Source of the DNA: Paractinoplanes tereljensis
GTDB taxonomy: Bacteria > Actinomycetota > Actinomycetes > Mycobacteriales > Micromonosporaceae
Assembly (NCBI RefSeq): GCF_016862435.1
Contig: NZ_BOMY01000034.1
Span: 124,001-188,000 of the forward strand
DNA length: 64,000 bases
Reading direction: 5' to 3'
Numbering within the stretch: the first letter of the stretch is position 1; every line of letters starts with the position of its first letter. The notes under the pieces were generated by a model that was not told where the DNA came from, made no database searches, and was given only the letters and a program-made list of their open reading frames with translations. The position numbers and the translations under genes were made by a program. Below are positions 5,284-55,804 of the stretch, one piece after another.

Positions 5284-5324
5284 CCCTCGCTCATCCGGAT
5301 CGGCGGCATGCCGATCAGGATGGC

Positions 5325-7580: not shown

Positions 7581-7659
7581 AAGCAAACCCTTTGCCGGTA
7601 CGGGCAACACCGCCGACAACCGCAATTCCCCCCAGTCGCCGTCGGTCACGAGCGCGAGC

Positions 7660-8828: not shown

Positions 8829-8861
8829 GAGGCGGCATGGTACCGCCCCCCGGGCGAGGGC

Positions 8862-8994
8862 CTCATCTCCGGCGAGGGCCCACCGTCGTAGGAATGTATG
8901 GTCCGGGGCGTGCCGACACTTCTCATCTCCGGCGAGGGCCCACCGTCGTAGGAATGTATGGTCCGGGGCGTGCCGACACTTCTCATCTCCGGCG
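8862..8994. repeat. 60-bp perfect tandem duplication across a start region
   Basis: A 60-bp unit is present twice and begins a third time: CTCATCTCCGGCG recurs at 8862, 8922 and 8982, and every base between matches at period 60. The unit contains the translation start of the downstream SDR gene (ATG at 8958) and a duplicate ATG at 8898. Because 60 is a multiple of three, the upstream copy reads as a 17-codon mini-ORF (MVRGVPTLLISGEGPPS) ending at TAG 8949-8951, six bases before the real ATG. Confidence 0.97.
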
Positions 8995-9719: not shown

Positions 9720-9725
9720 CCGTCC

Positions 9726-10376: not shown

Positions 10377-10382
10377 TCGGGC

Positions 10383-11216
10383 ATGGAGTACGTATCCAGA
10401 GTGCCGCGACCGCCGCTGGACGGGCTGATCGACGACCTTTACTACCTGGAAGGCACGCCGCCGTACGCCCGGCTGACGCTGCCGGCCAGCCCGGCCGCGT
10501 TGCTCATCGTCAACCTCGGGGCGCCGTTCCGCATCCGCACCGGCCTCGAGATGGCCGACTACGCCGACGGCTGCGTGATCACCACGCCCACCCGCGCGTG
10601 GGAGTTCAGCTATCCGGCCCGGACCCGGTCGGTCGGCGTGCACTTCAAGCCGTGGGGGCCGGCGCCGTTCCTGCCGATGCCCGCGGCCGAGCTGTGCGAC
10701 CGCCCGGTGACGATCGAGCAGGTCTGGGGCCGGCCCGCCGTCGCCGAGCTGCGCGACCGGCTGGCCACGGCGCACCGCCCGCACGAGATGCTGACCCTGC
10801 TCGAGGAGGAGCTGATGCGACGGCTGGGCGAGACTCCCGGCCTGGGGCTGGTCCGGCACACGGGCGGCGTCATCGCGGCGACCGGCGGGGCGATGGCGAT
10901 CGGCGACCTGCGGACGGCCGCCGGCGTCAGCAGCACGCATCTGGCCCAGCGGTTCCAACAGCTCATCGGCGTCACGCCGAAGCAGCTGGCCCGCAGCTAC
11001 CGCTTCACCACCACCATGCTCGCGCTCGACCCCGCCGAACCGATCGACTGGGCCGCCCTCGCCAGTCGATCGGGCTACTACGACCAGGCCCATTTCGGCC
11101 ACGAGTTCCGGGCGTTCACCGGCCTCACCCCGACCCGGTACGTCGAGGTCCGGCGGCAGTTCCTGCGCGAACACCCCGGCCACGTGATCGACGGCTGGCC
11201 GCTGCCGGCCGATTGA
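10383..11216 (+). CDS. AraC family transcriptional regulator
   Basis: 277 aa. The N-terminal half is a DUF6597/cupin-like sensing region beginning MEYVSRVPRPPLDGLIDDLYY. The C-terminal AraC DNA-binding domain carries two helix-turn-helix motifs (about 170-265), the second ending with the signature GYYDQAHFGHEFRAFTGLTP. It starts seven bases after the ThuA-like gene on the same strand, so it is probably co-transcribed and may regulate the SDR-ThuA unit. Its ligand is unknown. Confidence 0.92.
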   Translation: MEYVSRVPRPPLDGLIDDLYYLEGTPPYARLTLPASPAALLIVNLGAPFRIRTGLEMADYADGCVITTPTRAWEFSYPARTRSVGVHFKPWGPAPFLPMPAAELCDRPVTIEQVWGRPAVAELRDRLATAHRPHEMLTLLEEELMRRLGETPGLGLVRHTGGVIAATGGAMAIGDLRTAAGVSSTHLAQRFQQLIGVTPKQLARSYRFTTTMLALDPAEPIDWAALASRSGYYDQAHFGHEFRAFTGLTPTRYVEVRRQFLREHPGHVIDGWPLPAD

Positions 11217-11259
11217 TTTTCTACAAGAGCAGCAGCGCACGACACGCTAATTTGAGCCC

Positions 11260-11841
11260 ATGAGCAAAGTGGTCTTGTACAGCTCGGTGTCGGTGGACGG
11301 CTTCATCGCGGATCCCAACGACCAGCCCGGCCCGCTGTTCGACTGGTTGACCAGTGGCGACGTCCCGCTGGACGACAGCGGCGTGCTGAAGGTCTCGCAG
11401 ACGTCCTACGACTACGTCCGGCCGTACTGGGACGAGATCGGGGTGACGATCTGCGGCCGCCACGTCTTCGACCTGACCGACGGCTGGGAGGGAAAGCCCC
11501 CGAGCGGCATCGACCACGTGGTCGTCGTGACACACCGCCCGGCCCCCGACGGTTGGGACCCCGAGGCGCCGTTCCACTTCGTAGACGGCGTAGAGGCCGC
11601 CGTGGCCAGGGCCCAGGAGCTGGCGGGCGACCGCGTGGTCGAGGTAGCGGCCGGCGACGTCGGCGGCCAGGTGCTGGCCGCGGGCCTGGTGGACGAGGTG
11701 CGCATGGACGTCGTACCGGTGGTGTTCGGCGCCGGCAAGCGCTTCTTCGGCCCGGTCCACGCACAGCACCTGCTGGCCGACCCGGACGTGGCGATCCAGG
11801 GCAGTCGGGTCCTCCACCTGCGCTACCCGGTACGCCACTGA
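11260..11841 (+). CDS. RibD C-terminal/dihydrofolate reductase-like protein
   Basis: 193-aa reductase-fold protein of the RibD-C/DHFR group. It opens with the hallmark YSSVSVDGFIADPND, has a central ICGRHVFDLTDGWEGKPP region, and ends with VDEVRMDVVPVVFGAGKRFF, the conserved E-x-x-P-V-x-x-G-x-G segment. Such stand-alone proteins bind NADPH and probably reduce an unidentified heterocycle; they are not true folate enzymes. It follows the AraC gene after 43 bp. Confidence 0.9.
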   Translation: MSKVVLYSSVSVDGFIADPNDQPGPLFDWLTSGDVPLDDSGVLKVSQTSYDYVRPYWDEIGVTICGRHVFDLTDGWEGKPPSGIDHVVVVTHRPAPDGWDPEAPFHFVDGVEAAVARAQELAGDRVVEVAAGDVGGQVLAAGLVDEVRMDVVPVVFGAGKRFFGPVHAQHLLADPDVAIQGSRVLHLRYPVRH

Positions 11842-11928
11842 CCGTCCGGCCGACCGGTCTGGTGTGCCGTTCAACAATCAGCCGGCCGGTGATTCCCGCA
11901 GAACCCGGGCTGTGGTCACATTGACCTC

Positions 11929-13260
11929 ATGGCCGGAGGCGATCATGAGGGCGCGCTCGCGCGGATCCTCGATCCCGGCCGGCTGGCCGCGGTGCACCGG
12001 ACGCGCCTGCTCGACACCGGCCCGGAAGAGGCCTTCGACCGGCTGACCCGGCTCGCCGCGACCCTGTTGGGCACGCCGTTCGCCTTCGTGACGATCGTCG
12101 ACGACACCCGCTCGTTCTGGAAGAGCTCCGTCGGCATCGACAGCACCGACCCCGCCGACCGGCAGAACACCGTGCAGCAGTCGTTCTGCCAGTACGTCAT
12201 CGGCTCCGGGGCCGAACTGATCGTGACCGACGCCCGGACCGATCCGCGTACGGCGGCCAACCCGTCGATCGATCTGATGGGCGTGGCCGCCTGGGCCGGT
12301 TTCCCCGTCCGTTCTCCCGAAGGTCACATCCTCGGGACATTCTGTGCCGTCGACACCAGCACCCGGCAGTGGACCGCGCACGACGTCGAGGTTCTGCACA
12401 CTCTGTCGCAGGCCGCCGCCGGTGAGATCGCCCTGCGTGAGGCCGTGGACAACGCCGAAGCCGCCACCGCCAGAGCCGAAGCCGCCACCGCCGTCGCGGA
12501 GACCGCGACCGTCCGCGCCGAACAACTTGCCGACACGCTGCAGGAAAGCCTGCTCCCACCGCATCTGCCCGCGGTTCCCGGGGTCGACATAGCGGTGCGA
12601 TACCGGCGGGCCGCAGGTGGCAAGGCTGACGTCTACGGCGACTTCTACGACGTGTTCCCGTCCGTCCGGGACGCCTGGGCCGTGGTCGTCGGCGATGTCG
12701 CGGGCAAGGGCCCGCAAGCAGCCAAGGTCACCGCCCTGGCTCGATACACCCTGCGAGCAGCCGCTGCCCGAGGCGCGAATCCCAGCGCCAACCTCGCCAC
12801 CCTCAACGACGCGCTACTGGGCTGGTACACCGACGACCGGCGGTTCCTCACCGCCGTCTACGCCACCCTGCGACCCCACCGCGACGGCATCAGCGTGCGG
12901 GTCAGCTGCGGTGGCCACGACCCCGCGATCATCCGGCGCGCCGACGGCCGCATCCAGATGCTCGGCCGCCACGGCCTCATCCTCGGCTGGCGGCCCGCTC
13001 CGCACCTGTCCAACCAGCGGACGATCCTGCACCCCGGCGACAGCATGGTCCTGTTCACCGACGGCGTCACCGAAGGCCACCCCATCGGCCACCGGGAGCT
13101 GTTCGGGCCGGAGCGGCTGCAGAAAGTCGTCGCGGACGCCCCGGCCCACTCCGCGGATCAACTCGCCGCCGCCGTCGACGATGCCCTCGTCGCCTACACC
13201 GGCGGCCACGCCGCGGACGACACCGCCATCCTGACCCTGCACGTTCCCGCCCGTCCTTGA
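11929..13260 (+). CDS. GAF-SpoIIE (PP2C-type) serine phosphatase
   Basis: 443 aa. A GAF sensor domain (about 20-168, with an FVTIVDDTRSFWKSS start) is joined by an alanine-rich helical linker (about 165-200) to a SpoIIE/RsbU-type PP2C phosphatase (about 205-440). Metal-binding aspartates are visible in YGDFYD and GDVAGKG, and the C-terminal ADDTAIL motif is intact. Such enzymes dephosphorylate anti-sigma-factor antagonists in partner-switching stress pathways. No antagonist or anti-sigma gene is in the window; a lone receiver lies tail-to-tail with it. Confidence 0.93.
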   Translation: MAGGDHEGALARILDPGRLAAVHRTRLLDTGPEEAFDRLTRLAATLLGTPFAFVTIVDDTRSFWKSSVGIDSTDPADRQNTVQQSFCQYVIGSGAELIVTDARTDPRTAANPSIDLMGVAAWAGFPVRSPEGHILGTFCAVDTSTRQWTAHDVEVLHTLSQAAAGEIALREAVDNAEAATARAEAATAVAETATVRAEQLADTLQESLLPPHLPAVPGVDIAVRYRRAAGGKADVYGDFYDVFPSVRDAWAVVVGDVAGKGPQAAKVTALARYTLRAAAARGANPSANLATLNDALLGWYTDDRRFLTAVYATLRPHRDGISVRVSCGGHDPAIIRRADGRIQMLGRHGLILGWRPAPHLSNQRTILHPGDSMVLFTDGVTEGHPIGHRELFGPERLQKVVADAPAHSADQLAAAVDDALVAYTGGHAADDTAILTLHVPARP

Positions 13261-13268
13261 GCGGGGAG

Positions 13269-13736
13269 TCAGGTTTCGCAGGGGACGGGGCCTCCGCCGA
13301 GCACCAGGACGGGCTCGGGCGCCGCCTGCGCTGCCGGGAGGCTGTGCTCCCGGTGCCAGCGCTGTTGCCGTACCGGGCTCAGCAAGGCCTGGACCCGGCG
13401 GCTGAGGTCCTGCGGGTCGAAGGGTTTGACGACGTAGTCGTCGGCTCCGCAGTCGAAGCCGGAAGCCCGGTCGCCGAGCTGGCCACGAGCCGTCAGGATG
13501 ACCACCGGAATGCCGGCGGTGCGGCGGTCGGCGCGCCAGGTCGCACACAGGTCGAGGCCGGATGGTCCGGGCATCCTGATGTCCAGGATGACGCAGTCCG
13601 GCAGGGTCGTGGAGACCGAGTCCAGCGCCTCGGCGCCGCTGGTCGCCGTGCGGCTGTCGATGCCGGCGACGGCCAGCGTCGCGGCGACCAAGCCGAGCAG
13701 AGCCTCGTCGTCATCCACGATCAGTACCGTCGCCAT
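13269..13736 (-). CDS. Single-domain response regulator (receiver only)
   Basis: 155 aa, a CheY-like receiver with no output domain. Acidic pocket D8/D9, phospho-acceptor D52 (CVILDIRMPG), switch T82 (VILTARG) and K104 (VVKPF) are all present. The roughly 35 C-terminal residues are basic then Pro/Gly-rich and do not match a DNA-binding domain. It lies between a SpoIIE phosphatase (convergent) and a CHASE histidine kinase (divergent, 79 bp), so it may pass signals from that kinase by protein contact. Confidence 0.93.
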   Translation of the reverse strand: MATVLIVDDDEALLGLVAATLAVAGIDSRTATSGAEALDSVSTTLPDCVILDIRMPGPSGLDLCATWRADRRTAGIPVVILTARGQLGDRASGFDCGADDYVVKPFDPQDLSRRVQALLSPVRQQRWHREHSLPAAQAAPEPVLVLGGGPVPCET

Positions 13737-13815
13737 GACGCCTCCAGATTTCCCGCATAGCGTACTCTTCCCGGCATTTCGCGGTTAGGGTTTCCGGTAT
13801 GGATCTTGCGGGCCG

Positions 13816-16011
13816 GTGCTGAACCCGAGCCGGATGAGGTCGGCCTTGATGCTGGCCGGTGTGGCCGCCGCGCTCGTCGGCCTGGCCAGCCTGGTGGTCG
13901 CCGGCGCCGCCGAAGCCACCCAGGGCCGGGTGGCCCGGCAGCAGATCGACAACCGGGCGGCCCTGATCAGTGCCGCCGCGGCGAGTCAGTTGAACCGCTA
14001 CGTCGACGCCCTGACCCTGGTGACCGGTGGCCTCGCGGCCGCCGAGCCGTTGACCGCCGGCGCGTTCCAGCGGATCACGGCGCCACTGCGCTACCTGGGC
14101 CTCAGCGGTGTTCCCGCGGTCGCGTTCGTCGTGCCCGCGCGCGACGATCAGATCGCCGCCACCCAGGCGCTCTGGCGGTCACGCGGCTCCACCGGGCTGC
14201 GACTCGCACCGAACCGCCGCGTCGGCGAGCACCTGTTCGCGGTGATGAATCAGACGGTCGACGGGTCGAACCCGCCCCGGATCGGCCGGGACTCGACCCT
14301 CGCGCCGGCCGCCGCGACCGCGATGCGCCAGGCCCGGGCCTCCGGCCGGATCACCGTCTCGGACCCGTTTCCGCTGCTGCGTGACAACCTGCTGCCGCCG
14401 GGCCGCCGTCAGCTCTCCTTCGCCCTGGCCGCACCGGTCCAGAGCGGCGAGTACCGGTCGTTCCAGGGCTGGGTCGTGATCAGCCTGCGGGGCCAGGACT
14501 TCATCAGCGCCACCATGCAGAGGTTCTCGCAGGACCTGGTCGACGTGACGCTCCTGGTCCCGGTCGCCGACCGCCCGCTGGTGACGGTGGCCAGCCTGCG
14601 TGCCTCCGACACCACCCGGCGAGACCTGCATCGCGCCCTTGACCTGGCGGTGGCACAGGCGCACTGGACGATCCAGATCGACGCGGTCGCGGCCCGTCTT
14701 CCGGGTGTGCGCAGCGCAGTTCCGGTGACGGCGGGAATCGTCGGCGGGCTGACCGCCCTGCTGGCAGTGGTCCTGATCACCGGACGGGCCCGGGCCGACC
14801 AGCGGGTCCGTAGCGCCACCTCGGAGCTGGTCCGGGGCGCCGCCCACCTGCACACCGAACTCGACGCGCGGTATGCCGCCGAGGCGCTGCTGCGGACCGC
14901 ACACGACGACCTCGCCTCCCAGCGGACCCGCCTGACCCAGGTGCTCGACGCCCTCGAGGTCGCCGTCAGCACCTGCGACACCACCGGCTCGATCACCCAC
15001 CTGAACCGGGCCGCCCGTGATTGCCTGGGTGCCGAGGCGAGCCTGTCGACGATCACCGAACTCAGCACCCGCCTGAGCCTCAACGCCCTCGACGGCCGGG
15101 CCCTGCCGGAATCCGAGTTGCCGCTGCGGCGCTCGCTGGACGGGGAGGTCATCGACGGCCTGGAGGTGACCACCGCCGGGCCGGAAAGCCACCGGCGCGT
15201 CCTGCAGGTGCACAGCCGCCCGCTGTACGACCAGAACGGCGGCCTCGTCGGCGCGGTGGCCTCGTCGCACGACATCACCGCCCTGCGCGAGCACCAGGCC
15301 GAACTGACCGCCTTCGCCGGCGTCGTCGCCCACGACCTGAAAGGACCGCTGACGGCGGTCGCGGGCTTCACCCATCTCGCCGTGACGGCCCTCGCCGCCG
15401 GGGCACCACGGGATACGGCCTCCGCTCATCTGCGTCAGGTGCTCGACGCGGCTCATCGGATGGACCGGCTCATCGACGAACTGCTCCGCTACGCGGCCGC
15501 CCGCGATGCCCAGCTGGAACTGGCTGACGTCGACCTCCACGCGCTGGTGACCCAGACCGTCGCGGACCGGTTGACCGAACACGCCGCGCACCTGGACGCA
15601 CCGGTCCCGCACGTCTTCATCGGCCCGCTACCGCAGATTCGAGCCGACGCGACGATGATGCGGCAACTGCTCGACAATCTGATCGGGAACGGCTTGAAAT
15701 ACACCCGGCCCGGCCAGGCCGCCGAACTCGACATCACCGCCGAGACGTCCCGGACCGGCGAGTTGCGTCTCATGATCGCCGACCGCGGCATCGGCATCCC
15801 GCCCGATCAGCACGGCGCGATCTTCGCCACCTTCTACCGGGCCGATCGAGGCGACCACTACGCCGGAACCGGCCTCGGCCTGTCCATCTGCCAGCGGATC
15901 GCCCAGCGCCACGGCGGCGTCATCACCGCCGCGGACAACCCCGGCGGCGGAACCCGGATAACTGTCACCCTGCCCGCCGCGCTGCTCGACCAGGCAGCAC
16001 CGCCGCAGTGA
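13816..16011 (+). CDS. CHASE-PAS hybrid-less sensor histidine kinase
   Basis: 731-aa membrane histidine kinase. TM1 (about 10-30) and TM2 (about 298-320) bracket an extracellular CHASE domain. Then come a coiled coil, a PAS domain (about 375-490) and the HisKA domain with phospho-acceptor H506 in VVAHDLKGPLTAV. The ATPase domain has DNLIGNGLKYT (N box), ADRGIGIPPD (G1) and GTGLGLSICQRI (G2). GTG start at 13816, though an in-frame ATG at 13834 is possible. Its receiver partner is probably the divergent 155-aa protein. CHASE ligands are usually small extracellular molecules; this one is unknown. Confidence 0.93.
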   Translation: MLNPSRMRSALMLAGVAAALVGLASLVVAGAAEATQGRVARQQIDNRAALISAAAASQLNRYVDALTLVTGGLAAAEPLTAGAFQRITAPLRYLGLSGVPAVAFVVPARDDQIAATQALWRSRGSTGLRLAPNRRVGEHLFAVMNQTVDGSNPPRIGRDSTLAPAAATAMRQARASGRITVSDPFPLLRDNLLPPGRRQLSFALAAPVQSGEYRSFQGWVVISLRGQDFISATMQRFSQDLVDVTLLVPVADRPLVTVASLRASDTTRRDLHRALDLAVAQAHWTIQIDAVAARLPGVRSAVPVTAGIVGGLTALLAVVLITGRARADQRVRSATSELVRGAAHLHTELDARYAAEALLRTAHDDLASQRTRLTQVLDALEVAVSTCDTTGSITHLNRAARDCLGAEASLSTITELSTRLSLNALDGRALPESELPLRRSLDGEVIDGLEVTTAGPESHRRVLQVHSRPLYDQNGGLVGAVASSHDITALREHQAELTAFAGVVAHDLKGPLTAVAGFTHLAVTALAAGAPRDTASAHLRQVLDAAHRMDRLIDELLRYAAARDAQLELADVDLHALVTQTVADRLTEHAAHLDAPVPHVFIGPLPQIRADATMMRQLLDNLIGNGLKYTRPGQAAELDITAETSRTGELRLMIADRGIGIPPDQHGAIFATFYRADRGDHYAGTGLGLSICQRIAQRHGGVITAADNPGGGTRITVTLPAALLDQAAPPQ

Positions 16012-17472: not shown

Positions 17473-17891
17473 GACGTCGGCACTGCGGCGTCGATGCAGG
17501 CGCGGTTGACCCGGCCCGCCGCGTCCAGGAGATCGTCCTGGGCGTTCGCCGATTCGTCGCCGATGTCCGCGCGGAGCCAGGCCGAGTACCGGTCCTGCAC
17601 CTGCGCGCCGGCCTTTTCGATGCTCTCGACGCCAGACTTCCCGGCGTTCGCGATCAGGTCCTTGATCGCCGGCTCATCGATGTCTATCGCCTCGCCGGGC
17701 CGGGGCGCCGCGGCCGCGAGCTTGCAGGCGGCGACCGCCTCAGCCGCGGTGGGCGAGGCGGAACCAGCCGATGCCGCCACGGAGGCGACGGACGTCGCCG
17801 GCCGCGCCGCGGCGGGCTCAGAACCGGCCGCGCCACAGGCGGAAACGGAGATCACGCCGAGGACCGCCATGACGATCGATAGATGCCGCAT
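17469..17891 (-). CDS. Secreted lipoprotein, unknown function
   Basis: 140-aa probable lipoprotein. The signal peptide MRHLSIVMAVLGVISVSACG ends in a lipobox (VSAC, Cys about 19), followed by an Ala/Ser/Pro linker (about 20-55) and a helical domain with two cysteines (CKLAAAA and RACIDAA) that may pair. No named domain recognised. Its TGA overlaps the ATG of the SnoaL-like gene, so the two were co-translated before the frameshift. Confidence 0.82.
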   Translation of the reverse strand: MRHLSIVMAVLGVISVSACGAAGSEPAAARPATSVASVAASAGSASPTAAEAVAACKLAAAAPRPGEAIDIDEPAIKDLIANAGKSGVESIEKAGAQVQDRYSAWLRADIGDESANAQDDLLDAAGRVNRACIDAAVPTS

Positions 17892-45863: not shown

Positions 45864-45877
45864 GAGTACCGGTACTC
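45864..45877. promoter_or_regulatory. Perfect 14-bp palindrome before the 46-50 kb operon
   Basis: GAGTACCGGTACTC is exactly symmetric and ends 58 bp before the ATG of the adenylate-forming enzyme, within the likely promoter. It suits a TetR- or MarR-type dimer. It does not resemble the operator of the nearby TetR gene at 50.9 kb, so another regulator is expected. Confidence 0.6.
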
Positions 45878-45935: not shown

Positions 45936-47450
45936 ATGACGTACGTGCGGCAATGGCTTTTGCGGTTCGCCAGCACGGCATTGAGCTGGATCTACGGGCT
46001 GTACCGGGTGCACCCGGTGGCCTGGCGGGTGATGGCGAGGAACTACCGGCCCTGGATGGCCGGGTTCGGTCGCGTCCACGCCTGGATGACCTGCCAGTTC
46101 GCGGCGATCGACGTGCCCGCGTACGGCGATTTCCTCCGCCGCAACGACTGGCGGTTCCGCTGGTTCGACCTGTCCTGCTACCCGCCCACCGACAAGGTGT
46201 CCTACGTGGCCGCCTACCCGGAGGAACAGCGCTGCTGGGGTGGCCGCCTCGCGATCGCGGGCAGCGTCGTCGACGAGTCCTCCGGCTCGTCGGGCCGGCC
46301 GTACAACTGGGTGCGCAGCCGGCGCGAGCTGCGCACCGTGCACAAGAACCTGGCCGGCTACACCACCCTGGTCTTTCCGTCCCGGCGCCGGTTCGTCATC
46401 AACGCGTACTCGATGGGCGCGTGGGCCACCGGCACCAACACCGGGATCGCGATGGCCCGGGTGGCGATGGTCAAGAACACCGGGCCGGACCTGGACAAGA
46501 TCATCGACACGTTGCGGCACTTCGGGCCGGGCTTCGACTACGTGATCACGGCGTACCCGCCGTTTCTGAAGCATCTTCTCGACCGGATGGACGCGGACGG
46601 CTTCCCGTGGGCCGGCTACCGGCTGTCGGCGCTGGTCGGCGGCGAGGGGATGACCGAGGCGCTGCGCGACTACCTGGAGCAGCGGTTCGACAAGGTGCGC
46701 TCCGGTTACGGCGCGAGCGACCTGACGATCGGAATGGCCGGGGAGACCGACTTCACCGTCTGGCTGCGGCGCCGGCTGCGGACCGACGCCGGGCTGCGGG
46801 CCGCGCTGCTCGGGCCGGACGAGCACCGGCTGCCGATGATCTTCCAGTACAACCCCCTGGAGACCTACCTGGAGACCACGCCGGACCAGGAGATTCTTTG
46901 CACCATCAACACCACCGCGGTGCTCAACCCGAAGGTCCGCTACAACATCGGCGACGAGGGCCGGCTGCTGCCGTTCGACGTCGTGATGCGGGCGGCCGGG
47001 CCGGAAGCCGAGGCGGCCTGGCGGGTCGACCGGATGCGCTTGCCGCTGCTGTTCCTGTTCGGGCGCAAGGACAGCACGGTGTCCTACATGGGCGCCAACA
47101 TCTACCCGCAGGACGTCGAGTACGGCCTGTACACCGGCAACCCGATGGCGCACCTGATCGAGAGCTTCCGGCTGTGCCTGGAGGAGCGCGCCGACCTGGA
47201 GGCCCGGCCGACCGTCGACGTGCAGCTACGCGGCACGTCCACCCCGGACGAGCGGCGGGAACTCGCCGACCTCTGCCGGGCCGGGCTGCTGCGCTACCTC
47301 GCCGGGGTGAGCCGCGACTTCGCCGAGTCGCTGGCCGAGGACCCGTCCGCCGCCGACCTGCGGGTCCGCGTCCACGACCACGGCGACGGCCCGTTCCACG
47401 GCACCGACGGAAAGATCAAGAACGTTTACCTGACGAGGAGTACGGCATGA
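45936..47450 (+). CDS. Phenylacetate-CoA-ligase-like adenylate-forming enzyme
   Basis: 504 aa of the PaaK/CoF390-synthetase-like branch of adenylate-forming enzymes. P-loop-like VVDESSGSSGRPYNWVRS, A5-like SGYGASDLTIG, RYNIGDEGRLL, GRKDSTVSYMGANIYPQD and a C-terminal GTDGKIKNVYL that may hold the catalytic lysine. A hydrophobic N-terminus (LLRFASTALSWIYGLYRV) could touch the membrane. It should activate a carboxylic acid as AMP-ester. First gene of a four-gene operon; its stop overlaps the next ATG (ATGA). Substrate unknown. Confidence 0.85.
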   Translation: MTYVRQWLLRFASTALSWIYGLYRVHPVAWRVMARNYRPWMAGFGRVHAWMTCQFAAIDVPAYGDFLRRNDWRFRWFDLSCYPPTDKVSYVAAYPEEQRCWGGRLAIAGSVVDESSGSSGRPYNWVRSRRELRTVHKNLAGYTTLVFPSRRRFVINAYSMGAWATGTNTGIAMARVAMVKNTGPDLDKIIDTLRHFGPGFDYVITAYPPFLKHLLDRMDADGFPWAGYRLSALVGGEGMTEALRDYLEQRFDKVRSGYGASDLTIGMAGETDFTVWLRRRLRTDAGLRAALLGPDEHRLPMIFQYNPLETYLETTPDQEILCTINTTAVLNPKVRYNIGDEGRLLPFDVVMRAAGPEAEAAWRVDRMRLPLLFLFGRKDSTVSYMGANIYPQDVEYGLYTGNPMAHLIESFRLCLEERADLEARPTVDVQLRGTSTPDERRELADLCRAGLLRYLAGVSRDFAESLAEDPSAADLRVRVHDHGDGPFHGTDGKIKNVYLTRSTA

Positions 47451-47902
47451 GGACCGACGACTTCTCCCAGGCGCCGCCGCTGGGTCAGGCCACCGCGATG
47501 TTCGTAGGAGCCACGCGCTATCGGAGCCCGTACGACATCGTGGTTTTGAGTTTGACCTGGTTTCGTCTCGTCCGGCAGATGCGGCGGATGCGGGGTTATC
47601 GCTGGCACCGGGTCTACTGGCAGTGGCCGTTCACGCTCGGCACGATCGCGTTCTTCGCCGACCGCGACGCGATGCTCAAATTCGCCCGCTCCAAGCACCA
47701 CCGCGCCCTGATGTGCTGGGTCGCCGACCACGGCACCCGGCACGCCACCGGCGGATACATCCGGCTCTACACCGCCGACCGGGACGGTTACACCAACGGC
47801 GTCTGGCGGGCCGAGGACGAGCCGATGGCGCACATCGCGGACTTCTCCGCGCTGTCCACCGAGACGGCCGGCCCGCCCGTGCACCGGAAGGCCGCGCGAT
47901 GA
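47447..47902 (+). CDS. Small protein, possible dimeric alpha/beta-barrel (monooxygenase-like)
   Basis: 151 aa, soluble, rich in Arg, Trp and Tyr (RMRGYRWHRVYWQWPFTLGT). The centre, FFADRDAMLKFARSKHHRAL, followed by a GGYIRLYTADRDGY strand, recalls DUF4188/spheroidene-monooxygenase-like ferredoxin folds, but I am not certain. Start and stop both overlap neighbours by ATGA, so it is locked into the operon between the ligase and the acyltransferase. Confidence 0.78.
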   Translation: MRTDDFSQAPPLGQATAMFVGATRYRSPYDIVVLSLTWFRLVRQMRRMRGYRWHRVYWQWPFTLGTIAFFADRDAMLKFARSKHHRALMCWVADHGTRHATGGYIRLYTADRDGYTNGVWRAEDEPMAHIADFSALSTETAGPPVHRKAAR

Positions 47903-49002
47903 GGCTCGACCTGGTCACCGACCGGGCCGGGCTGCGGGAATTCCAGGCCTTGCCGATGCGGCTGCACCCGGCCGACCGATACGTGCCGATGGCCAACGCC
48001 GTGCTGGCCGGCTGGTGGCGCGGGAAGGCCGAGTTCTATCTCGTGCGCGATCGGAAAGGCGAGGTGGTGGGCCGCACCTGCCTGCACCGCGACCCGCGGC
48101 TCGACGCCAAGCTCGGCCGCGACCTGCAGTTGTTCGGCCTGACCGAGTTCGTCGACGACGACGCGGTGGCCGCCGCGCTCTTCCAGCTGATGGCGGAGCG
48201 GGGGCGGGACCTGTTCGGGCCGGTGGGCCTGCTGCCGAACCAGACCGGCGGCGTGATCACCTCCGGTTTCGACGAGCGGGGCTTCATCGACTCGACCTGG
48301 AACCCGGCCTACTACCCGGCCACCTACGAACGGCATGGCTTCACCCGCCGGTTCGAGTCCGACACCTGGCGCTGCGACCTGCCCGACGCCGACCCGGACG
48401 CGCTGTTCCGATTCGACGACGAGCGCCTGGCCGCGGAAAATCTGGTGCTGCGGCACGGTTCGCGCCGGCGGTTCGGCGAGCAGCTGCCGATCCTGCGGGA
48501 GATGCTCAATGCCAGCTTCGCCCGGCTGGGCTACTACACCGAGATCGACGCGGACGAGCTGGCGGCGCAGACCGACGGGCTGGCCTACCTGCTCGACGAG
48601 TCGCTGCTGATGTGGCTGGAGAAGGACGGCCGCCCGGTCGCCTTCGTGGTCACCGTGCCGGACGTCTCCCGGTTCCTGATGGCCCGGCGCGGCGACCTCG
48701 GCCTGGTCAACCAGCTGCGGTTGCTGGCCACCCGGGGCCGCTACCGCGACGAGGCGGTGCTGATCATCAAGGGGACCGTGCCCGGCGAGCAGGGCCGGGG
48801 CTATCTGACCCTGCTGTCCCGCGAGCTGTTCCGCAACCTGGTCGCCGGTGGCTACCGCACGCTGCGCAGCACGTTCGTGGAACGGGACAACCCGGCGTCG
48901 GCCGCGCAGTATCCGAGGATGGGCGGTCGCCCGCTGCACGGTTACACCTTCTACCAAAGGCCGCCCGAATATCAAAGGCAGGCCGATGAGCTGGGTCGAT
49001 GA
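47899..49002 (+). CDS. GNAT-fold acyltransferase-like protein
   Basis: 367 aa resembling large GNAT-related N-acyltransferases. N-terminal half has FYLVRDRKGEVVGRTCLHRD and GFIDSTWNPAYYPATYERHG, and the C-terminal half has VAFVVTVPDVSRFL and an acyl-CoA-binding-like PGEQGRGYLTLLSRELFRNL. The last helix ends STFVERDNPASAAQYPRMGG, typical of GNATs. It may transfer the acyl group activated by the operon's first gene. Overlaps both neighbours (ATGA in front, 17 bp behind). Confidence 0.8.
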   Translation: MRLDLVTDRAGLREFQALPMRLHPADRYVPMANAVLAGWWRGKAEFYLVRDRKGEVVGRTCLHRDPRLDAKLGRDLQLFGLTEFVDDDAVAAALFQLMAERGRDLFGPVGLLPNQTGGVITSGFDERGFIDSTWNPAYYPATYERHGFTRRFESDTWRCDLPDADPDALFRFDDERLAAENLVLRHGSRRRFGEQLPILREMLNASFARLGYYTEIDADELAAQTDGLAYLLDESLLMWLEKDGRPVAFVVTVPDVSRFLMARRGDLGLVNQLRLLATRGRYRDEAVLIIKGTVPGEQGRGYLTLLSRELFRNLVAGGYRTLRSTFVERDNPASAAQYPRMGGRPLHGYTFYQRPPEYQRQADELGR

Positions 49003-49975
49003 GCTGCGGCGCCGGGAGGACGCCTGCCGGCGGGCGCCGAGCGCCCACAACACCCAACCCTGGATCCTTCGGTACGCCGAGGAAGAGGTCACTGTTCATT
49101 GGGATCCGGATCGTGCGCTGCCGGATTCGGACCCGACCCGGCGGGACCTGTTCCTGTCGCTCGGCGCGTTCGTCGAGACGTGCCTGATCGTCGCCACCGG
49201 CGCCGGGCTGGCCGTGCGCGCGGAGATCGCGGTCGACGAGGACGAGCGGCGGGTGGCCCGGATAGTCGCGGCCGGCACAGCGTACGCCACGCCGTTCTCC
49301 GCCGCGGCGGTCGACCGTCGCCGCTGCGCCCGCGGCCCCTACCGGCCCGGCCATCTTCCGGAGCCGACGGCCGGTGTTCGCCGGCTTCCCTCCCGGCGGC
49401 TGGCCGGGATGTTGTCCGAATCCGATCGCCGGATGTTCGGCACCCCGGCCGTCGCCCGCGAGCTACGGCAGTGGCTGCGGCTGTCGCCCCGTCATCCGCG
49501 GTACGCGCTCGACGGCCTCACCGACCGCGCACTGGGACTGTCCCGGCTGGAGGCGGCCGGGCTCGCCGCCGCCCTCTCCCCCGTCGCCTACGCCGCCGGT
49601 CGCCGGCTCGGCCTGCCCGCGGTGCTCGCCGCGAGCCCCCGGAGCCTGCTGCGGTACGACGGTGACGTGCTGGTGCTCGTCGGCCGGGCGGACACCGCCG
49701 AGCACCTGGTGGAGCAGGGCCGGACGCTGATGCGGGTGTGGCTCGATCTGTCCGAGCGCGGACTCGCGGTGCATCCACTGAGCCAGATCCTGGACTGCGC
49801 GGCTACCGCCCGTACCCTCGAAGGCCTTTTGGGTCTGGAAGTTGGCTTTTCGGCCCTGGCCGTTTTCCGGGCCGGGCACCCGCTTCAGGAACCGGCCCGC
49901 TCGGCCCGGATCCCGGCGTCGAACGGGAAGGACACGCCGGTCAGTTCCTCGGAGACGGCCCACAGGCGACGCTGA
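48986..49975 (+). CDS. Acg-like nitroreductase family protein
   Basis: 329 aa, about twice a simple nitroreductase and closest to the Acg/Rv2032-type FMN-binding group. APSAHNTQPWILRYAEEEVT is the FMN-phosphate motif at the N-terminus; SRRDLFLSLGAFVET-like text follows (here TRRDLFLSLGAFVET). The C-terminus ends in HPLSQILDC and a divergent basic tail. ATG at 48986, overlapping the acyltransferase by 17 bp. Its end overlaps the convergent SDR gene by 91 bp. Likely redox enzyme or flavin store of the operon. Confidence 0.85.
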   Translation: MSWVDELRRREDACRRAPSAHNTQPWILRYAEEEVTVHWDPDRALPDSDPTRRDLFLSLGAFVETCLIVATGAGLAVRAEIAVDEDERRVARIVAAGTAYATPFSAAAVDRRRCARGPYRPGHLPEPTAGVRRLPSRRLAGMLSESDRRMFGTPAVARELRQWLRLSPRHPRYALDGLTDRALGLSRLEAAGLAAALSPVAYAAGRRLGLPAVLAASPRSLLRYDGDVLVLVGRADTAEHLVEQGRTLMRVWLDLSERGLAVHPLSQILDCAATARTLEGLLGLEVGFSALAVFRAGHPLQEPARSARIPASNGKDTPVSSSETAHRRR

Positions 49976-50817
49976 ACGGACGCGTCGTGCGAGGCCGGGC
50001 TGGAGGCGACCAGCCGGGGGTTGCCGCGGACCTCGCCGATGCCGTCGGGTCCGTAGTACTGCCCGCCCTGGACGGCCGGGTCGGTCGCGGCCCGCAGCGT
50101 GGGCAGCGCGCCCCTGGCCGGCTTCTGGGTGAGCACCGGCCCGAGCCAGGTCAGCGGCAGGCGCAGGAAGGCCGGGGTGTTGCGGGCCAGCTCGGTGTCG
50201 GACACACCGGGATGCGCGGCCACCGCGATGGTCGTGCCGTGCTCCGCGAGCCGCCGCTGCAGCTCGTAGGTGAACATCAGGTTGGCCAGCTTGGCCTGCC
50301 CGTAGGCGCCGACCCGGCTGTAGGAGTGCTCCCACTGCAGGTCGTCGAAGTGGATCGCGGCCCGGATGCGGTGCCCGACGCTGCTGACCGTCACCACCCG
50401 GGAGCCGGCCACCGGCAGGAGCCGGTCGAGCAGCAGCCCGGTGAGCGCGAAGTGGCCTAGGTGGTTGGTGCCGAACTGGGTCTCGAAGCCGTCCCGGGTG
50501 GTGCCCTTCGGGGTGTACATCACCCCGGCGTTGTTGATCAGCAGGTCGATCCGCGGGTGGGCGGCGCGCAGGTCGGCCGCCGCGGCCCGGACCGACGCGA
50601 GGGAGGTCAGGTCGAGTTCCTGCACGGTGACGTCGCCGGCCATCTGGGCGGCGGCCTGTTTGCCCTTGTCAACGTTGCGCACCGCCAGCACCACCGAGGC
50701 GCCACGCCCGGCCAGTGCCTTGGCCGTCGCGAAGCCCAGGCCGGTGTTGGCTCCGGTCACGATCGCCACCCGCCCGCGCTGGTCGGGGATGTCCTGCTCG
50801 GTCCAGTTCCTGCTCAT
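49885..50817 (-). CDS. Short-chain dehydrogenase (retinol-dehydrogenase/WWOX-like)
   Basis: 310-aa SDR. TGANTGLG cofactor motif, D-L-x-S (ELDLTSLAS), NNAGVM, catalytic Ser in VSSVGHR, YGQAK, then HPGVSDTEL. The N-terminal MSRNWTEQDIPDQRGRVAIV is typical of this oxidoreductase clade. Divergent from a TetR gene, with three operator-like repeats in the gap, so it is the probable target of that repressor. Natural substrate unknown, perhaps a toxic carbonyl. Confidence 0.93.
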   Translation of the reverse strand: MSRNWTEQDIPDQRGRVAIVTGANTGLGFATAKALAGRGASVVLAVRNVDKGKQAAAQMAGDVTVQELDLTSLASVRAAAADLRAAHPRIDLLINNAGVMYTPKGTTRDGFETQFGTNHLGHFALTGLLLDRLLPVAGSRVVTVSSVGHRIRAAIHFDDLQWEHSYSRVGAYGQAKLANLMFTYELQRRLAEHGTTIAVAAHPGVSDTELARNTPAFLRLPLTWLGPVLTQKPARGALPTLRAATDPAVQGGQYYGPDGIGEVRGNPRLVASSPASHDASVQRRLWAVSEELTGVSFPFDAGIRAERAGS

Positions 50818-50833
50818 CTCGTCCTCCTAAAGT

Positions 50834-50899
50834 ACCGCCGGTCTCTTATGCCGACAACGTTAAGAGACCGGCGGTCTGATGTCAAGAGACCGGCGGTCT
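50834..50899. promoter_or_regulatory. Triplicated TetR operator, AGACCGGCGGTCT
   Basis: AGACCGGCGGTCT, a 13-bp palindrome, occurs at 50865-50877 and 50887-50899 (22 bp apart). A third, slightly altered and inverted copy (ACCGCCGGTCTCTTA) is at 50834-50848. They fill the promoter gap between the SDR and TetR genes, one site beside each start. Confidence 0.85.
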
Positions 50900-50918
50900 T
50901 TAAGATAAGGTGGAGGGC

Positions 50919-51584
50919 ATGACGTTCCAACGGGCCCGCAGCGACGAACAGCGGGAAGCCCGCCGGCAGGCGATCCTGGACACCGCGGCGGCGATGCTCT
51001 GCGAGATGCCGGTGGCCGACGTGAGCCTCAACGAGCTGAGCCGGCGGGTCGGCCTGGCCAAGTCGAACGTGCTGCGCTATTTCGAGTCCCGCGAGGCGGT
51101 GCTGCTCGAACTGCTCGACTACTTCCTGCGGGCCTGGCTGCCCGAGGTGACCGCCGAGCTGGCGGCCGGCGTCGACCCGGACCGGCCCGCGACCGAGCGG
51201 GCCGGGCAGCTGGCCGACGTCCTCAGCCGGTCGCTCGCCGCCCGGGTGCAGCTGTGCGACCTGATCGGCGCGCAGGGTGGCGTGCTGGAGCACAACGTCT
51301 CGGTCGAGGTCATCCTGCGCCACAAGCGGGCCACCGTCGAGATCCTCGGGCAGGCGATCGACCTCATCCGGCACCACCTGCCGGAGGTGGGCGACGACGC
51401 CCAGACGGTCTGCCTGCAAGCCCTGATCATGGCGGGTGCCCTGTCGTCCTACTGCTCGCCGCCGGCCAGCGTGCTCGCCGCCTACCAGCACGAACCCGGT
51501 CTGGCCGCACTCCAGTTCGAGCTGGGCCCGTCGCTGCGGCTCGCGATCATCACCGCGATCCTGGGCACCCTCCCCCGGGATTGA
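50919..51584 (+). CDS. TetR family regulator
   Basis: 221 aa from ATG 50919 (GGTGGAGG upstream), with a possible start nine bases earlier. Helix-turn-helix SLNELSRRVGLAKSNVLRYF (about 35-55), then a TetR_C_17-like all-helical ligand domain. It faces a divergent SDR gene and the triple operator, so it should repress both until a ligand appears. Confidence 0.93.
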   Translation: MTFQRARSDEQREARRQAILDTAAAMLCEMPVADVSLNELSRRVGLAKSNVLRYFESREAVLLELLDYFLRAWLPEVTAELAAGVDPDRPATERAGQLADVLSRSLAARVQLCDLIGAQGGVLEHNVSVEVILRHKRATVEILGQAIDLIRHHLPEVGDDAQTVCLQALIMAGALSSYCSPPASVLAAYQHEPGLAALQFELGPSLRLAIITAILGTLPRD

Positions 51585-51648: not shown

Positions 51649-53895
51649 ATGGCACAAGGGCGAAACCGGCTGCTGACCGCATCGGTGTGGGGATCGTGCG
51701 CCCTGCTCGGCGCGGTCCTCGTTCAGTTCGTCACCGGATGGGGCAGCGGCTCCTCGGCCGGAGTGATCAACAACCTGGCCTACCTGCCCGCCGTCGTGCT
51801 GACCGCGGTCCTCGGGCTCCGGCTGATCCTGGCGGGCGGGCTGGACCAGCGCGAGCGCCGGGCCTGGATCCTGCTCGAGGTGTCGTTCGTCTGCCAGGTC
51901 GTGGCGCACGTGGCCTCGCTGATCCAGAAACCCGGGTACCCGGCCTTCTCCGACTACCTGTACGCGGGGGCGATCCCGTTCGTGGTGGCCGGGCTGTTGC
52001 TGCTGCCGGCCGCGCACCGCAACCGGGCCGAACGGGTCAAGCTGCTGATCGACTCGCTGATCATCGTGGCCGGGGCCTGCATGACGCTCTGGTACCTGGA
52101 GATCGGCCCGCTGCTGCAGACCCCGGGCGCCGACCCCGAGGTGATCATCTTCTCGACCGCCGTGCCGGTGCTCGACCTGCTGCTGCTCTTCGCGCTGATC
52201 ACGTTGCTGCTGCGCCGCTCGGAGACCGGTGCCGCGGTGGCCCTGCTGGGCGGGTCGATGGCCTTCAAGGTGGTCGCCGACAGCACCTACACGATCGCGT
52301 ACGTGCAGTTCGGGGTCTATTTCCGGCCCGGCGACTGGCCCTACCTGCTGTGGGCGGCCGGTGCCGTGCTGACCCTGCTCGCCGTGCACCGCCGCCTGCG
52401 CCAGAACGGCCCGGCCCCGGCCGAGCGCCCCGGTCGCGGCCGGCTCGGCTGGCTGCCGTACGGCGCGGTCGCCCTGGCCTCCGGCCTGCTGGCCTTCGTC
52501 GCCCGGGAGCAGTCGCTGTACCCGCTCGGCGGCATGATCATCGGCGCCATCGTGATCACCGCCCTGGTGATCGCCCGGCAGATGTACGCCCAGCGGGAGA
52601 ACCGCCGGCTGGCCGTCACCGACCCGCTCACCGGGCTGTCCAACCGCGCCCTGATCGCCGAGCGCCTGGCCGAGGTGACCCGGCAGCCGCTGCGCGCCGA
52701 CCGGCACAGCGCGGTCCTGCTGATCGACCTCGACCGCTTCAAGCCGATCAACGACGCGTACGGCCACGAGGCCGGCGACGCCGTGCTCAAGGCGGTCGCG
52801 GCCGCCCTGCGCGCGGTGATCCGCTCCGGCGACACGGCCGGCCGGCTCGGCGGCGACGAGTTCGCCGTCGTGCTGCCCGCCCTGCCGACCCGGGCCGCCG
52901 CCGAGGGCATCGCCCAGCGGCTGGTCGACGCGCTGCGCACGCCGGTGATCTTCGGGGACGCGCTGCTGTCCATCGAAGCGAGCATCGGCGTCGCGTTCCG
53001 GGACGAGACCACCCTCGACACCGAGCAGCTGCTCGCCCACGCCGACGCCGCCATGTACGCGGTGAAGCGCTCCGGCCGCGGCCACTTCCGGGTCTACACC
53101 CCGGAGCTGGACACCCGCGCCCGCGACGCCGAACTGCGCCGGGCGGTGGCCGGCGACGAACTGGTCGTGCACTTCCAGCCGGTGGTCTCGCTGACCGGCG
53201 GCGGGGGCATGTCGGTCGAGGCGCTGGTGCGCTGGAACCACCCGACCCGCGGCCTGCTGATGCCGGGCGCGTTCATCGACCTGGCCGAGGAGACCGGCGC
53301 GGTGATCCCGATCGGCGAGTGGGTGCTGCGCGACGCGTGCCGGCAGGTCGCCGGGTGGCGGGCGGCGAACCCGGCCGCCGAGTCGGTGTGGCTGAACGTC
53401 AACCTCTCGGCCCGGCAGGTCACCCAGCCGGCCCTGGTCGAGACCATCCGGGAGATCCTGGCCGAGACCGGCTTCCCCGCCGACCGCCTCGTCCTGGAGC
53501 TGACCGAGAGCGTGATCCTGCAGCCCGACGAGCAGACCGTGGCCCGGCTGAACACGCTGCGGGAGATGGGCATCGGCATCTCGGTCGACGACTTCGGCAC
53601 CGGCTATGCCGCGCTGAGCTACCTGCGGTCACTGCCGGTCACCGTGCTGAAGATCGACCGCTCGTTCGTCACCGGCATCGACACCGATCCCGACACGTAC
53701 GCCGTGGCCGAGGCCATCGTGCGGCTGGCCCAGGCCTACAAGCTGCACGTGGTGGCCGAGGGCATCGAGACCGCCGAGCAGGCCCGCTGCCTGGTCGAGA
53801 TGGGCTGCGGCTACGGCCAGGGTTACCACTTCGCCCGCCCGATGCCCGGCCCGGCCTTGGCCGAGCTGCTGGAATCGCGCCGCGTCCTGAGCTGA
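51649..53895 (+). CDS. Membrane GGDEF-EAL protein (cyclic di-GMP turnover)
   Basis: 748 aa. About nine N-terminal hydrophobic segments (10-310), a GGDEF domain (TDPLTGLSNR ... LGGDEF at about 400-405) and an EAL domain (VEALVRWNHP, ELTESVILQ, DDFGTGYAALSYL, KIDRSFV, AEGIET). Both active sites look intact. Similar in order and length to the protein at 5.3-7.6 kb but clearly divergent in the sensor. Next to a Stealth polysaccharide enzyme; control of surface polymer by c-di-GMP is only a suggestion. Confidence 0.95.
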   Translation: MAQGRNRLLTASVWGSCALLGAVLVQFVTGWGSGSSAGVINNLAYLPAVVLTAVLGLRLILAGGLDQRERRAWILLEVSFVCQVVAHVASLIQKPGYPAFSDYLYAGAIPFVVAGLLLLPAAHRNRAERVKLLIDSLIIVAGACMTLWYLEIGPLLQTPGADPEVIIFSTAVPVLDLLLLFALITLLLRRSETGAAVALLGGSMAFKVVADSTYTIAYVQFGVYFRPGDWPYLLWAAGAVLTLLAVHRRLRQNGPAPAERPGRGRLGWLPYGAVALASGLLAFVAREQSLYPLGGMIIGAIVITALVIARQMYAQRENRRLAVTDPLTGLSNRALIAERLAEVTRQPLRADRHSAVLLIDLDRFKPINDAYGHEAGDAVLKAVAAALRAVIRSGDTAGRLGGDEFAVVLPALPTRAAAEGIAQRLVDALRTPVIFGDALLSIEASIGVAFRDETTLDTEQLLAHADAAMYAVKRSGRGHFRVYTPELDTRARDAELRRAVAGDELVVHFQPVVSLTGGGGMSVEALVRWNHPTRGLLMPGAFIDLAEETGAVIPIGEWVLRDACRQVAGWRAANPAAESVWLNVNLSARQVTQPALVETIREILAETGFPADRLVLELTESVILQPDEQTVARLNTLREMGIGISVDDFGTGYAALSYLRSLPVTVLKIDRSFVTGIDTDPDTYAVAEAIVRLAQAYKLHVVAEGIETAEQARCLVEMGCGYGQGYHFARPMPGPALAELLESRRVLS

Positions 53896-53947: not shown

Positions 53948-55804
53948 GTGATCGCCGTCCGGATGTACCGCATCCTCCCCAAGCGCTATCGGCTGCGGCT
54001 GATCCAGCTGCTGCCGCCGCACCGGCAGCTGTGGCTGGTCCGGCAGCTCACCCGGCAACGGTCGCTGCCGCGCCCGGCCGCGGCGGGGGCGCTGATCCGC
54101 GTACGGGATGGGGGTCGTGCTGTTCTGGCCCTGGTGGTGACCGAGATGACCGCGGCCCGGGCCTGGCAGCAGAACCTCGACGCGGTGACCACCGTGCTCG
54201 ACCGGGAGGGCGTCGACCACTTCTGTGTCCGCCCGGTCGACGACGCGCACAGCGTGGTGGCGGTGCACCGCCGGGACCGGGCCCGCACGCTGGACGCCCT
54301 CCGGTCGGCCGCCGAACTGGCCGGGGCGCGGATCCGCACCGGGCGGATCACCGACGCCGGGTTCCGGGCCGGCCGGGCCGCACGGACCGGCGTGCAGGTC
54401 TTCTTCCCGTTCACCGACCCGCGCGGCACCACCGTCCTGGGTAGCGGGTCGGCCTGCGAGATCGAGTTCTGGCAGGAGCTGCCGGGCGAGGACGGCGCCC
54501 CGGCGATGCTCGTCGGCCCGCGCCGCAACCGGGTCGCCGCCGCCCTGCCGGTGGACGGCCCGTCGGTCCGGGTCGGCGCCGCCACGATCAACCGGATGCT
54601 GCCCGCGACCGGCGACGAACCCCGTTACCGGACCCGGGCCGAGTTCGCCGACGCCGCCCCCGACGACGTCCGCTTCCCGATCGACGCGGTCTTCACCTGG
54701 GTCGACGGCGACGATCCGGACTGGCTCGACCGCAAGAACGCGACCCTGGCCGCGATCGGCGCGCAGCAGATCAACGCGATCGCGGCCAACCAGTCCCGGT
54801 TCACCAGCCGCGACGAACTCAAGTACGCGCTGCGCTCGATCGTCGCCTTCGCACCCTGGATCCGGCGGATCCACGTGGTCACCGACGACCAGATCCCGCC
54901 GTGGCTGGACGACTCGCACCCCGGGCTGACCGTGATCAGTCACCGGGACCTGTTCGCCGGCACCGGCTCGCTGCCGACGTTCAACTCGCACGCGATCGAG
55001 TCCCGGCTGCACCTGATCCCCGGGCTGGCCGAGCACTTCATCTACTTCAACGACGACATGTTCCTCGGCCGGCCGGTGCCGCCGACCGCGTTCTTCCACG
55101 CCAACGGGATCGCCAAATTCTTCCTCTCGTCGGCCCAATTGGAGGCCGGCCCGGCGACCGCCTTCGACGCGCCGGTCACCGCGGCCGGCAAGAACAACCG
55201 GCAGCATGTCCTGGACCGGTTCGGCCGGGGCATCACGCAGAAGATGCAGCACGTGCCGTACCCGTTGCAGCGCAGCGTCCTCGAAGAGATCGAACGGACC
55301 ATCCCGGATGAGGTGCTGCACACCGCGCAGCACCCGTTCCGGCACCCCGAGGACCTGTCCATCCCGTCGTCACTGCAGCACTACTGGGCCTATCTGACCG
55401 GCCGGGCGGTACCCGGCAGCATCAAATACACGTACGCCGATCTCGCCCATCCCTCCACGCCGGCCCGGCTGGCGTTCCTGCTGGCCCGGCGGGCCACCGA
55501 CGTCTTCTGCCTGAACGACACCGACTCGGCGGTGGTCGCTCAGGCCGAGCAGCTCGCCATCATGGCCGACTTCCTGCCCCGCTACTTCCCGTTCCGCTCA
55601 CCCTTCGAGCTGCCCGACGACGTGACCGCCGAGCGGTCCGCGCTCAGCGCCACCCAGCTGGGCCTCGGCGCCCAGCCATGCCCGCACCGCGGCGGCGGTG
55701 GTCCGGGCGTGGACGTTGAGCATGCTGAAGTGGTCGCCGGGAACCTCGATCCGGGTGTGCGGCACCGATCGGGCCGCCCGCCATCCGGTGGGCAGGCCAG
55801 GTAG
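53948..55804 (+). CDS. Stealth-family sugar-phosphate transferase
   Basis: 618 aa. Stealth conserved regions in order: CR1 [19 protein letters not shown] (about 244), CR2 [20 protein letters not shown] with [16 protein letters not shown]3 [32 protein letters not shown]4 near [17 protein letters not shown]. The family transfers hexose-1-phosphate to build phosphodiester-linked polysaccharides, as in capsule synthesis. Core similarity ends by about residue 555. The remaining roughly 60 residues are antisense to the PKS thioesterase, an overlap of 207 bp, so the natural stop may have been lost. Confidence 0.92.

Follow-up and report, generated by a model that had tools for sequence, protein, structure and literature searches.

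What would a bacterium make with four tightly packed genes for a predicted acid-activating enzyme, a small barrel protein, an acyltransferase and a flavin oxidoreductase? The question is raised by positions 45936-49975 of a 64,000-nucleotide stretch of Paractinoplanes tereljensis DNA, hereafter the window, which belongs to a 10.79-Mb assembly of 82 contigs. An earlier note on this DNA had described four overlapping genes whose products look like the enzymes of a route to a modified acyl compound, in an order known to it from no described cluster. The layout is as described, all four genes lying on the + strand with overlaps of 4 bp (ATGA) between lig and sb, 4 bp (ATGA) between sb and gnat and 17 bp between gnat and acg, and the family assignments of the products hold in outline in Pfam, NCBIfam and structure comparisons:

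45936-47450, + strand: lig, gene for a predicted PaaK-like carboxylate-adenylating enzyme (ANL superfamily), 504 aa
47447-47902, + strand: sb, gene for a small protein of predicted ABM fold (dimeric alpha/beta barrel), Monooxy_af470-like, 151 aa
47899-49002, + strand: gnat, gene for a tandem GNAT acyltransferase, YghO-like, 367 aa
48986-49975, + strand: acg, gene for an Acg-type flavin oxidoreductase of the nitroreductase superfamily, 329 aa

The cassette is real, widespread and, as far as searches of the open-licence literature go, undescribed; in keeping with the note's remark on the gene order, no description of the four-gene set was found in open-licence PubMed Central (PMC) papers. The four genes probably make a fatty-acyl small molecule. 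It is also our leading reading, held with somewhat less than even confidence, that they form a self-contained biosynthetic unit whose product is an N-acylated small molecule, with an N-acyl amino acid derivative as the likeliest case.

Conservation and distribution of the four-gene set

Conservation was followed in 80 loci, the best 80 of 164 from a ligase search and hence biased towards close ligases. The earlier note would have taken scattering of the genes in relatives as speaking against its operon; instead, by family hidden Markov models (HMMs), all four families occur together in 77 of the 80 loci, and the strict order lig-sb-gnat-acg on one strand in 76 exceeds chance. A further locus (L082) starts in this order, with extra gnat and acg matches and a gnat split across two frames, and another (L075) carries a decayed cassette. 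The carriers span the Micromonosporaceae, Streptomyces, Embleya and Streptacidiphilus, the Pseudonocardiales, many Micrococcales (Brevibacterium, Subtercola, Agreia, Cellulomonas, Serinicoccus and Nesterenkonia) and one metagenome-assembled Corynebacterium. The closest named ligase, from Paractinoplanes toevensis, is 90% identical to that of the window, which is the single ligase copy found by a protein search of its genome. Every gene cluster beyond the four is limited to 16 or fewer of 81 loci (most neighbours being unannotated), and flanking genes are mostly shared within clades; the four genes therefore look sufficient as a unit.

More even samples, in which some first-look candidates per genome were scored, place the ligase in at least 39 of 200 family genomes at E<=1e-60 (seven of the same genus, its own included) and in at least 12 of 396 phylum genomes at E<=1e-40, and the distribution of the cassette is patchy. 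A mobile or phage origin was considered and rejected, given that the ligase has no match at E<=1e-10 among 50,697 phage records and two at E<=1e-20 among 72,556 plasmid records, one in Nonomuraea (an 11.85-Mb record labelled plasmid) and one in Gemmatirosa.

The four families also vary together. Their distance matrices correlate with r of 0.66 to 0.89 over 20-29 loci, uncorrected for species relatedness. In 12 of the 80 loci gnat and acg share one stop-free frame, with internal starts possible in all 12; L082 would be a thirteenth candidate and was excluded on account of a stop in the stretch between. Two small-barrel domains occur in 18 of the 80 loci, 16 times in one frame, when overlapping model ranges are required, and in 24 loci, 20 of them in one frame, when they are not. 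Taken together, the conserved set, the correlated distances, the gnat/acg single frames and the small-barrel doublings argue that the four genes are one functional unit. Within the double small-barrel frames (L040, L044, L059, L064 and others; 16 of 80), one domain stays near the window protein and the other has diverged, as if a homodimer had turned into a fused heterodimer.

Deeper in the phylum the set is looser. Three of the 12 phylum hits (the window's own, L108 and L109) carry the full cassette, and in six (L102-L106 and L110) lig adjoins an Acg-type gene, with no sb or gnat match in the stretches scanned. A Gemmatirosa replicon (Gemmatimonadota) similarly holds an acg-lig pair, with no sb or gnat match in the stretch scanned. 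At L105 an Acyl_transf_3 gene (PF01757, E 2e-26) overlaps acg, and the end of a similar Acyl_transf_3-type gene was recognised by eye at L110. Ligase and oxidase are thus the wider core, whose acyltransferase partner seems to change.

The four proteins and their relatives

Within the ANL superfamily the ligase is distantly related to PaaK, and by prediction it adenylates carboxylates. The P-loop, A5, A8 and A10-lysine columns, motif names which we take to apply here, are invariant or nearly so across 34 aligned rows with a mean column identity of 61%; the conserved features are an SxGSxG loop, YGASD, GRxD and K495. With phenylacetate-CoA ligase PaaK it shares these ANL-type adenylation motifs, and PaaK (4r1l, E 1e-3) is the only PDB relative found, whereas the distance between them is very large: TIGR02155 gives 32 bits (E 4e-8) against a cut-off of 646. 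No Pfam family matched the window ligase, and the Pfam AMP-binding model is reached by one of the 34 members at E<=0.01. The idea of a coenzyme F390 synthetase, after PaaK relatives that adenylylate F420, found no support in a literature search and was dropped.

The window's small protein alone falls under the Pfam cut-offs, and 30 of 32 aligned members match Monooxy_af470-like (PF13826) at E<=0.1. Its AlphaFold model, of medium confidence (pLDDT 68), resembles a ferredoxin-like barrel and finds ABM structures as its best matches, SnoaB (3kg0) first; H54, H85, R106, Y115 and N117 are invariant in 32 rows. On this model the protein has an ABM-like fold, and a monooxygenase role is putative, the fold serving other functions as well. 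It thus resembles SnoaB, other ABM-fold oxygenases and the Af470-like family in its fold and a weak family match, and differs from them in the paired copies of the 18 loci described above.

The GNAT of the window passes PF00583 narrowly (21.5 bits, cut-off 20.7), and its family HMM matches E. coli YghO over its full length (122 bits, positions 6-367; hhalign probability 99.5), by which it is assigned to the YghO type. None of 34 members matches NCBIfam at E<=0.01, and the family profile has no match among PDB sequences at E<0.03. Its AlphaFold model (pLDDT 93) finds mycothiol synthase MshD (1ozp and 2c27) as the top PDB matches, with other tandem GNATs; a mycothiol-like function was set aside, MshD being 16% identical and just one among many tandem GNATs. 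YghO is the proposed ceramide N-acyltransferase of E. coli, and yghO is listed with Caulobacter CC_1154 among acyl-CoA N-acyltransferase genes of dihydroceramide synthesis (PMC9386255; this and the other papers are cited from the portions available). The cassette GNAT differs from this bacterial ceramide-type enzyme in having no additional widely kept gene beside it. Two further distant GNAT relatives stand, by eye, beside acyl-carrier or polyketide-synthase-type and lipid-type genes; at L151 (about 5200-14960) the neighbours of a distant relative encode, again by eye, an acyl carrier protein, a KAS-III-like protein, an acyl-AMP-ligase-like protein and a polyketide synthase.

The fourth product is Acg-like over its whole length (MsAcg, 2ymv, reaches E 1.8e-20 against the cassette family profile, positions 1-311) and carries residues kept throughout the group, which place it among Acg-type members of the nitroreductase superfamily; flavin binding is predicted. 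P18, N22, Q24, P25, G60, R112, R116, G177, G245 and R308 are the commonest residues, at 100%, in the rows of the sets called FDO-A and FDO-B as in those of the cassette and the lone pairs, and S19 is common to all oxidase rows but one lone-pair row. With the Acg/Rv3131/Rv3127 family (FDO-B) the protein shares its whole-length Acg-type sequence, the RAPSxHNxQPW motif and the best curated model, NF047509; it differs in scoring below that model's cut-off (158.5 bits, cut-off 199), in its separate tree branch and in its fixed operon setting. Elsewhere in this genome several loci exceed this cut-off, and genome-wide there are 19 NF047509 matches at E<=1e-15 (gene fragments counted separately, the cassette gene included), several of them close together.

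Its place was sought in a tree of 56 rows, besides an earlier one of 52 rows, neither of which includes TyzC, OxzB or the 58 subclusters of PMC10404671. In the 56-row tree the 24 FDO-B rows (100/98) and the five FDO-A rows of Rv1355c/TrzS type (100/100) each stand separate; away from both these sets, one branch (98/93) sets off the cassette rows together with L102, and another (100/100) six lone-pair rows. As a group of their own the cassette rows have low support (61/70 and 56/10 in the two trees), L102 falling among them, and long branches lead to L108, L113, L102 and one FDO-B row. W252, R305 and S306 are found in 19, 15 and 19 of 19 cassette rows against two, none and three of 24 FDO-B rows, and also in lone-pair rows and in FDO-A rows, only two of which were counted. 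From its sequence, the cassette oxidase is classed as an Acg-group oxidoreductase outside both the FDO-A and the FDO-B sets compared, and it may belong to an FDO subcluster already drawn in PMC10404671. Equating TrzS Arg540 (PMC12856293) with cassette R165 was considered and not used, since the numbering could not be fixed and an Arg stands there in seven of 24 FDO-B rows too.

Possible products of the cassette

How might these proteins act together? The YghO-type tandem GNAT would move an acyl group from acyl-CoA or acyl carrier protein onto an amine, for which an amino acid is the likeliest candidate; the Acg-type enzyme would serve as an O2-dependent flavin mononucleotide (FMN) oxidase and desaturate the amino-acid part; the PaaK-like enzyme would adenylate the carboxylate, for oxazolone ring closure or for capture by a nucleophile; and the ABM-fold protein would tailor the product. 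Taken as a whole, the scheme of three roles, N-acylation, FMN desaturation and ATP-driven carboxyl activation, has in our judgement nearly an even chance of being right, whereas ring closure, its least certain step, is doubtful. Full-length relatedness to YghO counts for N-acylation, and membership of the oxidase in the wider Acg/FDO group counts for desaturation, since that group holds characterised N-acyl amino acid desaturases. Also in favour are the joint conservation of the four families, the gnat/acg single frames, the neighbours of the distant GNAT relatives, the presence of W252, R305 and S306 as in FDO-A, and the ligase-oxidase core. The characterised FDOs TyzC, OxzB and TrzS desaturate N-acyl amino acids or the azlactones formed from these by cyclisation (PMC10404671, PMC12856293); cyclisation precedes desaturation in Trz, and either order is possible in Tyz (PMC12856293). 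The modified acyl compound proposed by the earlier note fits the relationships of the parts, and the analogy to Tyz, Trz and Oxz, which the note did not name, makes the proposal more specific.

Several observations weigh against this scheme. The oxidase reaches 158 bits with the FDO-B model but 64 with the Rv1355c model, shares H21 and W163 with FDO-B and not with FDO-A, and stands outside a branch on which FDO-A joins FDO-B (99/94 in the 56-row tree); for FDO-B members no desaturase activity is shown in the available portions of the oxazolone-pathway literature. The one PDB relative of the ligase is named as a CoA ligase, and the analogy leaves the ABM protein without a role. Two Streptacidiphilus loci (L028 and L031) have lig-sb-acg without gnat, and three of the 12 phylum ligase hits have no Acg match nearby, namely L107 (20 kb), L111 (17 kb, with a broken ligase) and L100 (a 2.6-kb stretch). 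Finally, ThiF, a FeeM-like acyltransferase and an Rv1355c-type oxidase are all absent from the cassette: the two PF00899 matches of the genome (E<=0.001) lie on other contigs (C13 and C46) rather than beside or fused to the oxidase, and the Rv1355c model has no match in this genome at E<=1e-40; the fold of the acyltransferase matches MshD and other tandem GNATs best and not the FeeM and acyl-homoserine-lactone (AHL) synthase type; and in the 56-row tree the oxidase falls away from the Rv1355c/TrzS-type rows. As these three features define oxazolone pathways, the cassette is not classed as one.

The PaaK kinship of the ligase points to a different pathway, possible though on balance unlikely, in which a free aryl or fatty acid is turned into its CoA thioester, the oxidase desaturates or reduces the thioester, oxidation by the ABM protein follows and the GNAT transfers the finished acyl group to an amine, so that the acid and not an amino acid is modified. 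Acyl-CoA is a common GNAT substrate, the order lig-sb-gnat-acg would suit activation first, and the lone ligase-oxidase pairs also suit an oxidase acting on the ligase product. However, at such a distance from PaaK the use of CoA cannot be carried over, and N-acyl amino acids or azlactones are the substrates of those FDOs that have been characterised (PMC10404671, PMC12856293). Far less probable is an operon that breaks down or detoxifies an aromatic or nitro compound, with ligase, monooxygenase-like barrel, nitroreductase and a detoxifying GNAT acetyltransferase; each part has relatives there by family name (PaaK, ABM, nitroreductase, GNAT), but the oxidoreductase is Acg-type and not a classical nitroreductase, the GNAT is YghO-like, and no transporter, beta-oxidation or ring-cleavage partner is widely kept among neighbours that are mostly unannotated. 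The relationship to YghO could instead suggest modification of a lipid or the cell envelope, the GNAT N-acylating a ceramide-like lipid base, the others building or trimming its acyl chain and the product staying in the membrane. We consider this the least probable of the three, as ceramide synthesis, in the form described in the source available, has no step for the oxidase or the ligase, and serine palmitoyltransferase is not part of the unit, judged by the lack of any other widely kept gene and not by a genome-wide model search.

The boldest form of the N-acyl amino acid reading, that of a separate, convergent pathway in which the PaaK-like ligase would perform the ThiF-type activation and ring closure with a third lineage of flavin oxidase, giving an undescribed class of N-acyl dehydro-amino acids or azlactones shared by many actinobacteria, is one that we consider unlikely.

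Setting of the cassette and its likeness to known systems

One further feature precedes the genes:

45864-45877, no strand: palindrome GAGTACCGGTACTC, the window form of a GAGTA/TACTC element upstream of the cassette

The palindrome had been called private. It is indeed unique in the genome, occurring once in the assembly at up to one mismatch (at up to two, one other window site, 17584-17597, is found, against a mean of 0.10 in shuffles), but it is also one version of an element that related genera share upstream of their cassettes. The half-sites GAGTA and TACTC recur about 35-100 bp upstream of the ligase start, converging as in the window or arranged TACTC...GAGTA. Among 31 Micromonosporaceae, streptomycete and Pseudonocardiales promoters, 22 have both half-sites within 45 bp and 30 at least one, compared with 10 and 1039 among 13,739 background windows, and with 3 and 39 among 416 stretches that precede other genes, in a test designed after the sequences had been seen and with background windows that overlap each other. 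The remaining 50 loci have both half-sites in no case and at least one in three. A wider regulon in this genome was rejected, since the divergent form GTACTCAGN6TGAGTA at up to two mismatches has three genome hits against 16 for the reversed control. Promoter and terminator scans found none.

Some neighbour genes, here as around the deeper relatives and the distant GNAT relatives, were called by a codon-usage script, which missed the window acg. The 3' end of acg overlaps a convergent SDR gene by 91 bp (49885-49975), and this gene with a regulator, TetR-type by eye, occupies 49885-51584 downstream of the cassette. In Paractinoplanes toevensis (L010) the same pair lies immediately upstream (86% and 80% identical), so the cassette has switched sides of the pair. 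Farther along, a GGDEF/EAL-type protein (51649-53895), which follows the TetR-type gene and has no match in the L010 stretch, and a Stealth-type phosphotransferase-like protein (53948-55804) were recognised by eye; cyclic di-GMP genes adjoin trzAS (PMC12856293). An alpha/beta-hydrolase-like gene, also identified by eye, lies before or after the cassette in several Micrococcales (14 loci, including L036, L038, L044 and L059).

The roles of Acg-type flavoproteins outside ThiF-linked oxazolone pathways are largely open. The function of Acg is called unknown and lipid desaturation merely suggested for the FDO-B group, and the three FDO-B genes of Mycobacterium tuberculosis are not near predicted oxazolone genes (PMC10404671, in the portions available). 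The cassette gives such a protein a fixed four-gene setting, and as its carriers are mostly environmental, cultured bacteria, the Acg question becomes experimentally tractable.

On this evidence, the known systems that the cassette most resembles in its working are the acyl amino acid pathways of oxazolone type, among which it is not classed. As in Tyz (TyzABC), Trz (TrzAS) and Oxz (OxzAB), an N-acyltransferase, a flavin oxidase of the nitroreductase superfamily and an ATP-dependent carboxylate activator would be combined in a small gene set, with the roles adjacent or fused. ThiF and oxidase are fused or adjacent in the oxazolone pathways, with the acyltransferase beside them (PMC10404671, PMC12856293), and the ligase-oxidase core of the cassette relatives parallels this ThiF-FDO core of Trz and Oxz. 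The parts themselves differ: the activator is a PaaK-like ANL enzyme non-homologous to ThiF, a YghO-like tandem GNAT replaces the acyltransferase with FeeM/AHL-synthase-like fold, the oxidase groups apart from those Rv1355c/TrzS rows that were compared, and the ABM protein comes in addition. This hints that the same chemical logic may have arisen repeatedly, out of activating enzymes and acyltransferases that are unrelated.

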